Shown here in pieces: positions 2,653-50,610 of a stretch of 64,000 nucleotides of DNA (within the stretch, counting starts at the first letter, position 1; each line of letters starts with the position of its first letter). The stretch lies in assembly GCF_016093545.1 (NCBI RefSeq), contig NZ_JADKYX010000001.1, positions 434,001-498,000 of the forward strand, written 5' to 3'. The translations under genes were made by a program, and so were the position numbers. This stretch comes from Massilia rhizosphaerae (GTDB lineage: Bacteria > Pseudomonadota > Gammaproteobacteria > Burkholderiales > Burkholderiaceae_D). Under the pieces are notes generated by a model. That model worked only from the letters and a program-made list of their open reading frames with translations. It searched no databases and was not told the origin of the DNA.

Positions 2653-3370
2653 GCGTGATATTCCCGAGGCGTCAAAAGGCGGTGCAGGACAAGGCGGCAC
2701 GGGCAGGCCCGCGATCGAAGTCGCCGGCCTGTCCAAGCGCGTGGCGGATGCCAGCGGCGAGCTTACCATCCTGCACGACGTGGATTTTACCGTGCAACCG
2801 GCCGAGACGCTCGCCCTCGTCGGCGCCTCCGGGTCCGGCAAGTCCACCTTGCTGGGCCTGCTGGCGGGTCTCGACACGCCGTCCTCGGGCAAGGTCGTGC
2901 TCGACGGCACGGACATCTTCGCCCTCGACGAGGACGGCCGCGCCGCGTTCCGCAAGGCCAGGCTGGGTTTCGTGTTCCAGTCGTTCCAGCTGCTCGCGCA
3001 CCTGAACGCGCTGGAAAACGTGATGCTGCCGCTGGAGTTGCGCGGCGACGGCGACGCGCGCGCGAAGGCCGAGGCGATGCTCGGCCGCGTGGGACTGGGC
3101 AGCCGCCTGCGCCACTATCCCAAGTACCTGTCGGGCGGGGAACAGCAGCGCGTCGCGCTCGCCCGCGCCTTCGTCACGGAACCGCCGCTGCTGTTCGCCG
3201 ACGAGCCCACCGGCAGCCTCGACGCCGCCACCGGCGAAGCCGTCATCCGCCTGATGTTCGACCTGAACCGCGAGCGGGGTTCCACGCTCGTGCTCGTCAC
3301 CCACGACCCCGCCATGGCCGCGCGCTGCGGCCGCATCCTCACCATTTCGGCCGGCCGGCTCGTCGCCTGA
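2651..3370 (+). CDS. ybbA: YbbA-type ABC transporter ATP-binding protein
   Basis: A 239-residue ABC ATPase of the LolD/MacB-like group. Walker A GASGSGKST, Q-loop FVFQSFQLL, signature LSGGEQQR, Walker B LLFADEPT and switch His in VTHD are all intact, so it should be active. Divergence from tesA is the usual position of ybbA. The ATG at 2651 gives an N-terminus close to the E. coli length; an alternative at 2615 has a better AAGGA site but would overlap tesA by 38 bases. The permease YbbP that normally follows is absent: the next gene is a PEP-CTERM protein. Confidence 0.9.
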   Translation: MRDIPEASKGGAGQGGTGRPAIEVAGLSKRVADASGELTILHDVDFTVQPAETLALVGASGSGKSTLLGLLAGLDTPSSGKVVLDGTDIFALDEDGRAAFRKARLGFVFQSFQLLAHLNALENVMLPLELRGDGDARAKAEAMLGRVGLGSRLRHYPKYLSGGEQQRVALARAFVTEPPLLFADEPTGSLDAATGEAVIRLMFDLNRERGSTLVLVTHDPAMAARCGRILTISAGRLVA

Positions 3371-5864: not shown

Positions 5865-9464
<3,600 letters not shown>

Positions 9465-46736: not shown

Positions 46737-47426
46737 ATGACGTCCCACCGCCCGTTGCGCCGTACCGTTCTCCGATCTTTCGTGCTGGCCGTGGCGCTGG
46801 CCGCGGGCATCCATCCGGCGCAGGCTGCGCAGACGCCGGCGCAGACGGCCGACTTCTTCCGCGCCGTGCAGATGGACGATGCGGGCACCGTGCGGGCCTT
46901 GCTGGGCAAGGTCGACCCGAACCAGGTGAACCCGGTCGGCGGCGAACCGGCACTGGTGCTCGCCGTGCGCGAAGGGGCGATGCAGGTGTTCGACGCGCTG
47001 CTGCGCTATCCCGGCACGAACGTCGACGCACCAGCCATGAACGGCAACACGGCGCTGATGATGGCCGCGTACAAGCACGACAAACCCGCCGCCGAAGCCC
47101 TGATCGCGAAGGGCGCGGCCGTGAACCGTCCCGGCTGGACGCCGCTGCACTACGCGGCCGCCAGCGGCGACGACGACATCGCGCGCCTGCTGCTGGCGCA
47201 CGGCGCCCGCATCGACGCGGCGTCGCCGCCCGCCAGCGGCGCCTACACGCCCCTGATGATGGCGGCGCGCGAAGGCCATCAGGACAGCGCGCTGTTCCTG
47301 CTCGGCCAGGGCGCCGATCCGCGATTGAAGAACAGCGAAGGCTTGACGGCGGCCGAGATCGCGCGGCGGGCCGATCACGGCGCTATCGCGAAGGCGCTCG
47401 AGCAGCGCGCTAAGAGCGGCCGCTGA
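46737..47426 (+). CDS. Secreted ankyrin-repeat protein
   Basis: A 229-residue protein with signal peptide 1-30 (ends AQA) and about four to five ankyrin repeats: NTALMMAAYKHDKPAAEALIAKGA, TPLHYAAASGDDDIARLLLAHGA and TPLMMAAREGHQDSALFLLGQGAD are clear. It is expected to bind a protein in the periplasm. GAGGAA precedes the ATG by 7 bases, overlapping the end of tatD, so it is coupled to it. Its last 17 bases overlap the convergent GGDEF gene. Confidence 0.9.
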   Translation: MTSHRPLRRTVLRSFVLAVALAAGIHPAQAAQTPAQTADFFRAVQMDDAGTVRALLGKVDPNQVNPVGGEPALVLAVREGAMQVFDALLRYPGTNVDAPAMNGNTALMMAAYKHDKPAAEALIAKGAAVNRPGWTPLHYAAASGDDDIARLLLAHGARIDAASPPASGAYTPLMMAAREGHQDSALFLLGQGADPRLKNSEGLTAAEIARRADHGAIAKALEQRAKSGR

Positions 47427-48750
47427 GCGGATCCGCGCCGTCCGCCTGGCACGGGTGCGCGCGCTTGGCCGCATACATGCGCGCGTCCGCGTGCATCAAC
47501 AGCGTTTCGACCTGGTCCGCGTGGTCCGGGAACAGCGCGATGCCGATGCTGACGCCGATGTGGAGCGGCACGCACGGCGTCGGCACCGGTTGCGCGAGCG
47601 CGGCGCGGATCTTGTCGGCGCAGCGGTCGGCGTCTTCGGGCGCCTGCAGGTCTTCCAGCAGCAGCACGAATTCGTCGCCGCCGAGGCGGGCCACGGTGTC
47701 GGACTCGCGCGCGCACTCCACCAGCCGGGCGGCCACCTCGCGCAGCAGCGCGTCGCCGGTGGCGTGGCCATGATGGTCGTTGACCTGCTTGAATTCGTCG
47801 ACGTCCACGTACAGCAGACCCAGCCGTGACTGGCTGCGCCGGGCCCGGGCGACGGCCGTGCGGACGCGGTCGAAGAACAGCCGCCGGTTCGGCAATCCCG
47901 TCAATTCGTCGTGGCAGGCCGAGCGCATCAGGTCGTCGTGCAGGCGCTTGCGCTCCAGCGCCAGGCCGACCTGGACGGCGACGAAGCGCAGCAGGCCGCG
48001 GTCGGCCGGCGAGTAGCCGGTACCGGCGCGGTCGCGCAACAGCAGGGCGCCGATGGTGCCCGCCGGCCCCTTCAAGTCGATCATGAGCCAGGTGTTCAGG
48101 CGGCCGGCCGCGACGTGGCGTACGGCGTCCGGCGCGAGCGTGTCCGGATTCGACGTCGCCGCGCGCCAGCGCGCGAGGCAGGCGCGCGACGGCGGGCGCG
48201 TCCGTTCGTCGTGGTCGCGCCGGTAGATGACCTTGAAACCCTGTTGCGCGGTGGGATCCGTGACGACGACCATGCCGGGCGCGCCGACCATCCGGTCGAG
48301 GATGCCATGGATGTCGGCGCACAGTCCGGCCAGGTCGCCGGCCACGAAGGCGGCCTCGGAAATGGCGTAGGTCGCGGCCTGGCGCCGTTCGGCGCGCTTG
48401 CGCAGGGTGACGTCGCGCGCGACGCCCAGGCGCAGGTTCTGGTCGGCGATCCAGCGCGCCGACCACATGACGTCGACCCAGTGGCCTTCCTTGTGCAGGT
48501 AGCGGTTTTCGAAGCCGATGCTGTCCTGTCCGGCCGCGATGCGCGCGCTTTCCGCGAGGGTCCGGTCGTGGTCTTCGGGAACGACGAAATCGAGGATGTG
48601 CCGTCCGATCAATTCGGTCGGGCGGTAGCCGAGGATGCGCTCGCTGCCCGCGCTGACGTCGACGATGACGCCGTGCCGATCCACCAGGAACACGACGTCC
48701 AGCAACAGATCGGCAATATTCGCCGAGAGGGAACGAATCGAATGGACCAT
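47410..48750 (-). CDS. PAS-GAF-GGDEF diguanylate cyclase
   Basis: A 446-residue soluble sensor. PAS/PAC at about 12-118 (VSAGSERILGYRPTELIGRHILDFV, then ARDVTLRKRAE), GAF-like about 125-270, GGDEF about 285-440 with LGGDEFVLLLED and the inhibitory RxxD (RESD) five residues earlier. There is no TM segment. It should make c-di-GMP, with product feedback. The 219-base gap upstream carries an AT-rich inverted repeat that may control it. Confidence 0.93.
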   Translation of the reverse strand: MVHSIRSLSANIADLLLDVVFLVDRHGVIVDVSAGSERILGYRPTELIGRHILDFVVPEDHDRTLAESARIAAGQDSIGFENRYLHKEGHWVDVMWSARWIADQNLRLGVARDVTLRKRAERRQAATYAISEAAFVAGDLAGLCADIHGILDRMVGAPGMVVVTDPTAQQGFKVIYRRDHDERTRPPSRACLARWRAATSNPDTLAPDAVRHVAAGRLNTWLMIDLKGPAGTIGALLLRDRAGTGYSPADRGLLRFVAVQVGLALERKRLHDDLMRSACHDELTGLPNRRLFFDRVRTAVARARRSQSRLGLLYVDVDEFKQVNDHHGHATGDALLREVAARLVECARESDTVARLGGDEFVLLLEDLQAPEDADRCADKIRAALAQPVPTPCVPLHIGVSIGIALFPDHADQVETLLMHADARMYAAKRAHPCQADGADPLSGRS

Positions 48751-48822: not shown

Positions 48823-48969
48823 TCAACGCCGGTGCTGTTCCGCCGATCCGACAAACTGAACTGCAAATCCCCGTCACCTCCACGCATCGCCGGTTTTCCA
48901 CCGTGTACATAATGCATCCTGAGATCAACATGGCGCCGGCAGGACCGCGGGCCCGACAACGAGGACACA

Positions 48970-49893
48970 ATGCTGAACGAACGCGAAATCGAGAGTTGCT
49001 ATCTGGGGCAGTTCATCCCGGTCCACTACCACCACAACATGCTGATGGATCACAACCGCATGCACAGCTTCAAGTCGGCGATCTACCACGCCGTCAAGCC
49101 GGGCATGAAGGTGCTGGAACTGGGCGGCGGCACGGGCGTCCTGTCGTTCTTCGCGGCGCAGAACGCGGACAAGGTCTACTGCGTCGAGTTCAATCCGGAC
49201 ATGGTGCACGAGGCGCGCCGCTTCCTGGCCATGAACGAGAACGGCCACAAGGTGGAGGTCGTGCACGCGGACGCGTTCGAATACCTGCCGCCGGAGCCGG
49301 TCGACATCGTCATCTGCGAGATGATCCACGTGGGCATGCTGCGCGAAAAACAGGTCGACGTGATCGAATCGTTCAAGCGCCGCTACCTGGCGCGCTTCGG
49401 CGGTCCGCTGCCGATCTTCATGCCGGAAGCCGTCATCATGGCCGCCCAGCCGCTGCAGCTGGAATACGATTTCGAAGGCTTCTACGCGCCCATCGTGCAG
49501 TTCCAGCCGACCAACGTGATCTACCCGGGCACCGTCGAGCTGGCGCAGCCGGGCGTGTATTCGATCATGGACTTCAGCCAGCCGGTGGGCGACGCCATCG
49601 CGTGGGAAGGCCAGTTCCGCATGGAGCAGGGCGGGCGCCTGAACGCGCTGCGCTTCATCACCAAGAACGTCCTGTCCATTATCGAGGAGCGCGGCACCAC
49701 GATCGACTGGCTGAACCACTACATGATGCTGCCGCTGGCCACGCCGCTGGACGTGCAGGCGGGCGACGTCGTGCAGGTGAGCTTCGCGTACCGCGCGGGC
49801 GGCTCGATCCCGTCGCTGGAAGCGTCGATGCGGGCCGAGGTCGTTGCGCGCGCGGGCGAGCCGGTGCGCGCGCGCGAGACCGCGCTCGCGTAA
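48970..49893 (+). CDS. PRMT-like class I SAM methyltransferase
   Basis: A 307-residue protein with the architecture of protein arginine methyltransferases. The N-terminal HHNMLMDHNRMHSFKSAIYH helix matches the PRMT start; motif I is VLELGGGTGVLSFFAA (48-63), the ribose-binding acidic residue is Glu73, and the double-E loop is CEMIHVGMLRE with Glu117 and Glu126, nine residues apart as in PRMT1. The C-terminal half is a beta-barrel candidate with TIDWLNHYMMLPLATPLDVQAGD, aligned with the THW loop, which here reads IDW. GAGGA precedes the ATG. The methylated target is unknown and could also be a small molecule. Confidence 0.75.
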   Translation: MLNEREIESCYLGQFIPVHYHHNMLMDHNRMHSFKSAIYHAVKPGMKVLELGGGTGVLSFFAAQNADKVYCVEFNPDMVHEARRFLAMNENGHKVEVVHADAFEYLPPEPVDIVICEMIHVGMLREKQVDVIESFKRRYLARFGGPLPIFMPEAVIMAAQPLQLEYDFEGFYAPIVQFQPTNVIYPGTVELAQPGVYSIMDFSQPVGDAIAWEGQFRMEQGGRLNALRFITKNVLSIIEERGTTIDWLNHYMMLPLATPLDVQAGDVVQVSFAYRAGGSIPSLEASMRAEVVARAGEPVRARETALA

Positions 49894-50271: not shown

Positions 50272-50382
50272 GCATTGACGTCCGGCCAGTGTGCGCCGAT
50301 TAACAGACGGACACGAACCGTTCGCCTATCGTGCCATACTGATGGCTTTCATCCGAGGGCCATGCTTTTAAAGGATATGACT

Positions 50383-50610
50383 ATGCGCCTGGACATCTAC
50401 CGCAGAGCCGAGCACGACGGCAAGTTCTCCTACCTGGCCGTCCCCGAGACCCGCAACATCCCCGAGGAAGCCACGAATACCGACTGGGAAGTCGAAGCGC
50501 GGGCCTTCGAAGTCGACGACGGCGCCGGCGATCTGCCGGATTACGATATCCAGAACCTGACCGGCCAACTGGCCGAAAAAGGGTACGCCGTCACGTCGTC
50601 GATGCACTGA
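50383..50610 (+). CDS. DUF6139-like small protein
   Basis: A 75-residue acidic protein starting MRLDIYRRAEHDGKFSYLAVPE, ending LAEKGYAVTSSMH. From memory it fits DUF6139, a family restricted to Oxalobacteraceae and relatives. AAGGA stands 8 bases before the ATG at 50383, which is why longer starts are rejected. No function known. A long hairpin follows 34 bases after the stop. Confidence 0.7.
   Translation: MRLDIYRRAEHDGKFSYLAVPETRNIPEEATNTDWEVEARAFEVDDGAGDLPDYDIQNLTGQLAEKGYAVTSSMH

Follow-up and report, generated by a model that had tools for sequence, protein, structure and literature searches.

The window (the whole stretch of 64,000 nucleotides that was analysed) contains, at positions 48970-49893 of the forward strand, a gene encoding a PRMT-like methyltransferase. 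The gene starts with an ATG and consists of 307 codons plus a stop codon, and homologues of it were found. A GAGGA read from the sequence at 48961-48965 (+) is probably its ribosome-binding sequence. Farther upstream, 56 nt before the ATG, lies the hexamer CATAAT (48908-48913, +), which we infer to be the probable -10 element of a sigma70-type promoter. Of 105 upstream regions of 130 nt, which are distinct but related, 57 contained ATAATG, compared with 3.7 expected upon shuffling. Because this nATAAT hexamer recurs upstream of the start, the methyltransferase gene is probably transcribed from a sigma70-type promoter of its own. On the 5' side of the hexamer, at about 48853-48890, there is an imperfect block (approximately AACTGG..GG.AAA....CAGCTC) that recurs in Massilia-like loci and is a possible operator candidate. 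The home genome (7.0 Mb, in 59 contigs) contains one full copy of the gene plus one weak match (E 1e-4).

Among the best 80 of the 213 loci confirmed in named genomes, most belong to Massilia, Telluria, Duganella, Janthinobacterium, Rugamonas and Pseudoduganella, and the nearest protein is that of Massilia kyonggiensis (96% identity). Upstream of the methyltransferase gene, these 80 loci contain tatD (80/80) and the ankyrin gene ank (79/80), and 63 of them also contain a PilZ gene within 6.5 kb, as far as the locus reaches. A reverse-strand GGDEF gene is located between ank and the methyltransferase gene in eight of the 80 and also in the window, where a Pfam match identifies it as a PAS-GGDEF gene (47410-48750, -). 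An operon with ank is not supported: the ank match ends 105-1571 bases before the methyltransferase gene, and the GGDEF gene intervenes in those eight loci. Downstream, the window contains a DUF6139 gene (50359-50610, +) and an aspartyl/asparaginyl beta-hydroxylase gene (PF05118; 50741-51640, +); both were matched in most Massilia loci, whereas the loci of Duganella and Janthinobacterium gave no match to them over about 6 kb. Outside the named loci, inspection by eye revealed no common neighbour save the flagellar pair described below and the peptidase-M48 neighbourhood of loci L134 and L136, with the peptidase being confirmed for L134 only.

In the family to which the window belongs, 82 out of 195 genomes gave a strong match (E 1e-71 or better); weaker matches, including a 33-residue fragment in genome G194, were scored as absent. 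A stop is located inside the match in two of these 82 genomes (G065 and G087), and two others (G009 and G042) have partial copies. Beyond the family, relatives with 35-71% identity were detected in 26 genomes belonging to 13 other families of the phylum, which is a small fraction of the genomes searched. In a sample of the class, 10 of 369 genomes (the window's own included) gave matches at E values up to 1e-12, some of which are THW-type relatives only. Carriage by phages was considered and rejected, as the scan of viral_contigs for phage-borne relatives found none and the PHROGs matches were limited to three generic methyltransferase families.

Enzymatic protein arginine methylation has been studied mostly in eukaryotes. 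When the window protein was compared with PDB sequences using phmmer, the first 58 among the best 60 of 128 matches (E 6.3e-14 to 5.1e-6) were named arginine methyltransferases, with one exception that is labelled “MGC151858 protein”, and matches 59 and 60 were other methyltransferases. The top matches were PRMT4.2, PRMT3 and PRMT6 (E 6e-14 to 5e-12), in alignments that span residues 4-177 only. A 19-row profile of the family (A2) aligned with PDB sequences over positions 11-149 (E 2.7e-22); its barrel part gave no significant alignment to PDB sequences on its own. A profile of six bacterial PRMT-like proteins, five of which have His-Trp (A3), provides a bridge between A2 and the known PRMTs. 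Using hhalign, A2 and A3 aligned over 252 columns, up to residue 273 (E 7.6e-37), with the Trp of the family's IDW placed on the Trp of the THW loop, and A3 in turn aligned with PRMT6 over positions 6-310 (E 1.6e-61). A second set of bacterial PRMT-like proteins also aligned with A2 (E 4.1e-29).

The curated libraries do not give the window protein a PRMT family name, and Pfam assigns it generic methyltransferase domains, the best match being Methyltransf_25. The Pfam family PRMT_C (PF22528) is absent from the 21 families that match the window protein at E values up to 0.1, and also from the 25 families (of 31) listed for 19 family members; it did match all three THW-type bacterial PRMT-like proteins that were tested. 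The best NCBIfam match is methyltransferase CpaM, which covers residues 20-138 only and whose score of 54.7 bits falls short of the cut-off of 180 (E 8.6e-15); none of the 25 matches listed, out of 62, attained the cut-off of its own model.

A structural model was predicted from a 71-row alignment with middling confidence (pLDDT 67.5; an earlier model, from 16 similar rows, had a pLDDT of 60.7), the parts with a pLDDT below 50 being residues 1-28, 120-124 and 167-181. All 50 Foldseek matches listed for this model are PRMTs (best E 2.5e-16, for TbPRMT7; TM-scores 0.59-0.67), and the same holds for the 50 matches listed by VIA-align 2, in which 270 residues (1-295 of the model) aligned with PRMT6 at a Z of 18.6 and an rmsd of 3.8. 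The model matches PRMT6, CARM1 and TbPRMT7 over almost its full length, including the barrel, which corresponds to approximately residues 152-295 (49423-49854, +) according to the profile-profile alignment and the model. Thus, the window protein very probably consists of a Rossmann fold followed by a PRMT beta-barrel, and the predicted barrel is well supported by the profile-profile alignment together with a model of middling confidence. The sequence-only reading had proposed a PRMT layout with a C-terminal barrel, and both are supported, the layout by the PDB sequence matches, the profile-profile alignment and the predicted fold, and the barrel by the latter two. Of the database checks on a PRMT assignment, the fold searches do return PRMTs, but Pfam PRMT_C gives no match and the best curated families are Methyltransf_25 and CpaM.

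The residues that this reading had placed in PRMT order, namely HHNMLMDHNRMHS at 21-33, motif I at 48-56, Glu73, the Glu117/Glu126 pair and IDW at 245-247, are found at these positions and are conserved across a set of 113 distinct proteins of the family that includes many close relatives; this set was used for all conservation counts. Alignments to PRMTs place the N-terminal segment YLGQFIPVHYHHNMLMDHNRMHSF (residues 11-34; 49000-49071, +) at what we take to be the counterpart of the PRMT N-terminal helices. Within it, Met24, Asp27 and Arg30 are present in 111, 112 and 113 of the 113 proteins, respectively. Motif I, VLELGGGTG (residues 48-56; 49111-49137, +), which is expected from alignments and conservation to bind SAM, contains Gly52 (112/113), Gly54 (112/113) and Gly56 (113/113), and agrees with the PRMT motif I as defined in the available part of PMC12925635. 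The same source defines the post-I acid, which is present here as Glu73 (49186-49188, +; Glu in 112 and Asp in one of the 113) in the segment VYCVE, with a Cys where PRMTs have Gly or Ala. Glu73 is expected to form a hydrogen bond with SAM, a role assigned from PRMT1 as described in the accessible text of PMC8619983.

The alignments also identify the double-E loop, CEMIHVGMLREKQ (residues 116-128; 49315-49353, +), of which residues 120-124 are modelled with a pLDDT below 50. It contains Glu117 (111/113; Asp in two), Glu126 (112/113; Ala in one) and the invariant His120. Compared with the PRMT loop SExMGxxLxxExM, the two Glu residues have the same nine-residue spacing, and the Gly is changed to His and the last Met to Gln. 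The known role of this pair in PRMTs, according to the part of PMC8619983 available, is to neutralise the guanidinium group.

The IDW sequence (residues 245-247; 49702-49710, +) stands where PRMTs have the THW loop, with its Trp aligned with the THW Trp by hhalign. Trp247 is invariant, and the residue before it, at position 246, is an acid throughout the 113 proteins (112 Asp, one Glu), so that the THWxQ sequence is not found here. The earlier remark that the THW His is lost is therefore correct, and the change is stronger than claimed, as an acid has taken its place throughout the family. In addition, the YFxxY motif that is generally conserved in type I PRMTs is replaced by YLGQF (Tyr11 91/113, Phe15 103/113). 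The window protein thus shares with eukaryotic PRMTs (PRMT6, CARM1/PRMT4, PRMT3 and Trypanosoma PRMT7) the Rossmann fold plus barrel, motif I, the post-I acid, the nine-residue spacing of the double-E pair and MLxDxxR near the N-terminus, but differs from them in having an acid for the THW His, His120 for the Gly of SExMG, YLGQF for YFxxY, a short arm region and no PRMT_C match. Because the THW His, YFxxY and a PRMT_C match, which are defining features, proved to be lacking when tested, we regard the protein as a variant of the PRMT fold and not as a regular PRMT. Other bacterial PRMT-like proteins (L108, L122, L129 and others) share its two-domain layout and, unlike the window clade, have His-Trp in five of the six cases, match PRMT_C in the three tested, and in two cases carry SEC-C or TPR domains. 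Within this group, L108 and L129 comprise one protein with a C-terminal SEC-C motif and one with an N-terminal TPR array, both of which match PRMT_C.

Taken by themselves, these substitutions might indicate that an old PRMT fold harbours a new active site, formed by Asp246, His120 and Lys232, that methylates a protein or metabolite at a group other than guanidino. The acid at position 246, His120 and Lys232 are each present in 113/113 proteins, while among the six PRMT-like relatives five have His and one has Ser directly ahead of the Trp, and all six have Gly at the place of His120. However, the double-E pair, which serves to neutralise guanidinium, is kept in 111 and 112 of the 113 proteins, and we consider this explanation improbable. 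It is far less probable still that the protein is a largely structural or regulatory SAM-binding protein devoid of catalysis: inactive copies may exist, given the degraded glycine loop and Glu126 in L107/L137 and the Asp at position 117 in L190, but motif I, Glu73 and both Glu residues are intact in the window protein and in nearly all of the 113. The L137 relative (7810-8733, -; the distant L107/L137 member, with 35% identity), in which Glu126 and some of the motif I glycine loop are missing while IDW is kept, is perhaps such an inactive copy. We conclude that the family represents a conserved and probably active enzyme of the PRMT fold, in which the THW loop is invariably acidic, and that its chemistry is likely to be arginine or guanidino methylation.

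In the mechanism that we propose, Glu117 and Glu126 would bracket the guanidinium group of an arginine, and SAM, held by motif I and Glu73, would donate the methyl group. In PRMT1, the N-terminal helices are stabilised by the THW loop, the H293S mutation alone leaves the formation of MMA and ADMA intact, and its combination with M48F yields mainly SDMA, as reported in PMC8619983. Since H293S retains MMA and ADMA formation, the loss of the THW His does not by itself show an altered specificity. By alignment, Met24 occupies the place of PRMT1 Met48, and for this reason MMA or ADMA would be the likelier product; that is, mono- or asymmetric dimethyl-arginine would be formed, as symmetric dimethylation by PRMT1 needed Phe at the Met48 position. 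Asp246, in the place of the THW His, probably alters the closing of the N-terminal helices over the substrate. The substrate itself would be a protein, possibly a flagellar one or one involved in flagellum assembly, and the gene would be expressed from its own sigma70-type promoter.

The gene had been described as not obviously tied to a known pathway, which is true within the window; its relatives, by contrast, point weakly to the flagellum. In genome G1286 (family f191; locus L181), the gene is located between fliC-flaG-fliD-fliS-fliK-flhB_C-ycgR and fliE, fliF-fliG-fliH-fliI. In G948 and G1153 (family f266; L176 and L182), it adjoins flhB_C-fliK...fliS-fliD...fliC, in the opposite orientation. 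Flagellin, FliS, the FlhB C-terminus and YcgR were confirmed by Pfam for the proteins tested, and the other flagellar names were assigned from sequence. As these two lineages are sisters in the tree (99/99), the position in a flagellar cluster may reflect a single event. Flagellar queries gave no match in the loci of the other lineages, which are 4 to 17 kb each, and the neighbours in the 80 named loci are tatD and ank.

We also screened genomes for the Flagellin_N domain (PF00669), which picks up the FlgL hook-filament protein as well. In the family sample, it is present in 82/82 positive genomes versus 89/113 negative ones (Fisher p 7e-7, ignoring kinship). It was likewise found in all 26 positive genomes of the 13 other families, so that a flagellin-type gene is present in each of the 108 positive genomes tested, and in 134 of 200 genomes of an order sample that includes positive genomes. 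The incomplete genomes G686, G749 and G779 gave only weak, FlgL-type PF00669 matches. Counted by genus, the family signal is weak, because 38 of the 44 genera in the sample carry Flagellin_N. The flagellar link of the PRMT-like gene is only suggestive, and the flagellin-type genes in all positive genomes tested hint at an unstudied protein modification; a flagellar protein as the actual substrate is nevertheless somewhat doubtful.

The upstream regions were also scanned for a sigma28 (FliA) promoter, TAAA-N14-16-GCCGATAA. A score of at least 9 was obtained for 34 of 117 regions, without clear enrichment over the 24.0 expected by single-base shuffling and the 24 obtained for the reverse strand. 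In flagellin controls the scores were 11, 11, 10 and 5, the lowest coming from a region with only 38 upstream bases. This small excess, part of which the sigma70-like -10 hexamer may account for, was rejected as support for a sigma28 promoter, and the sigma70-like hexamer is present instead.

In G948 and G1153, which are two species of the same genus, the methyltransferase forms the C-terminal part of an ORF of 825-837 residues (L176:7028-9538, -; L182:6085-8559, +). In the ORF of G948, the N-terminal part spans about 540 residues; it gave no match in PDB or NCBIfam, and the whole ORF none to this part in Pfam, at the limits used. By eye, this part looks like a PLP enzyme. In both loci, the fused ORF is preceded by a PLP decarboxylase gene. 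The PLP-like domain also occurs alone, following a decarboxylase gene and a TPR-like gene, in G032, G187, G033 and G1079. This three-gene arrangement (PLP decarboxylase, a TPR-like protein weakly similar to RimK, and the PLP-like protein) is located at L200:4529-8777, with flaG at 8840-9271, at L201:4521-8832, with flaG at 2960-3337, and further at L202 and L203; flaG is adjacent to it in G032 and one ORF off in G187. The proximity to flaG thus concerns two genomes of one genus, and the operon is possibly an undescribed flagellar modification operon. The PLP-like domain was rejected as an obligate partner of the methyltransferase, as it is present in 6 of the 40 genomes searched (37 clade-positive and 3 negative).

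The fusion to a PLP-like domain and the preceding PLP decarboxylase gene in L176 and L182 would suit small-molecule chemistry, and the main rival to a protein substrate is indeed a small-molecule guanidino methyltransferase acting on free arginine, agmatine or a pathway intermediate. There is bacterial precedent in streptozotocin biosynthesis, where SznE/StzE is described as methylating the guanidino group of arginine and as working together with SznF/StzF, for which N-omega-methyl-L-arginine is an accepted substrate (PMC11705231). A further arginine methyltransferase, 31% identical to SznE, is encoded in a gene cluster that provides N-methylagmatine groups (PMC12637814, a preprint). The short arm region points in the same direction. 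A helical dimerisation arm, which is crucial to PRMT activity according to PMC8619983, is not confirmed here: the model contains no helix between residues 165 and 208, at low confidence (pLDDT below 50 at 167-181), and A3 carries 10 and 5 extra columns after residues 171 and 175 that the family lacks. On the other hand, the 80 named loci have tatD and ank as neighbours and no biosynthetic cluster, and this tatD-ank setting is stable over several genera, unlike that of a typical natural-product gene. Weighing these points, we regard a small-molecule substrate as rather unlikely and a protein substrate as an even call.

The reading that we prefer, a divergent bacterial PRMT-like enzyme that methylates protein arginine, perhaps in a flagellar protein, stands at about the same even level. 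It can be set beside two systems, both likened here by description. SznE/StzE shares the bacterial origin and the arginine guanidino group, which is the chemistry proposed here, but works on arginine for a natural product (PMC11705231). The flagellin lysine methylase FliB is a flagellum-tied methyltransferase, a role that is one possibility for the window protein, but methylates lysine by a [4Fe-4S]-mediated reaction (PMC8598068, PMC7181671). Lysine methylation of flagellin by FliB is known (PMC8598068, PMC7181671, PMC7212469). In its most specific form, the preferred reading would be arginine methylation dedicated to the flagellum, in which an enzyme of the PRMT fold, its THW loop acidic, acts on flagellin or another flagellar protein as the arginine counterpart of FliB, and in one genus is fused to a PLP-like domain that in two further genomes belongs to a three-gene operon adjacent or close to flaG; we hold this version to be unlikely. 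Literature searches on bacterial PRMTs and on flagellin methylarginine or arginine methyltransferases gave nothing on this clade among the results listed, which is weak evidence of absence as few subscription journals were covered, and no paper on a bacterial PRMT was among the listed results.

Being conserved in Massilia, Duganella and Janthinobacterium, a full-length enzyme of the PRMT fold whose guanidinium-binding pair is intact would offer a simple system for studying bacterial protein-arginine methylation, in which the effect of the acidic THW loop on the choice of product and substrate could also be shown. If the flagellar hint is true, a new modification would be added to those of the flagellum. 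The clade could also help to show how eukaryotic PRMTs relate to the broader bacterial family. A tree without eukaryotic PRMTs or SznE was built from 46 representatives of the clade together with 17 further PRMT-like rows. The clade and the other PRMT-like rows are located on opposite sides of one branch (93/96), and the long-branch L110 is nearest to the clade; the deep order is unsure because there are several long branches.

Among 72,556 plasmid records, three weak matches were detected, one of which covers at least 80% of the query. A region of plasmid NZ_CP046706.1 of Nostoc sp. ATCC 53789 (205258-206139, -), annotated as a non-ribosomal peptide synthetase, aligns with the window protein over residues 21-299 with 24% identity, and this NRPS region may possibly hold a PRMT-like domain.
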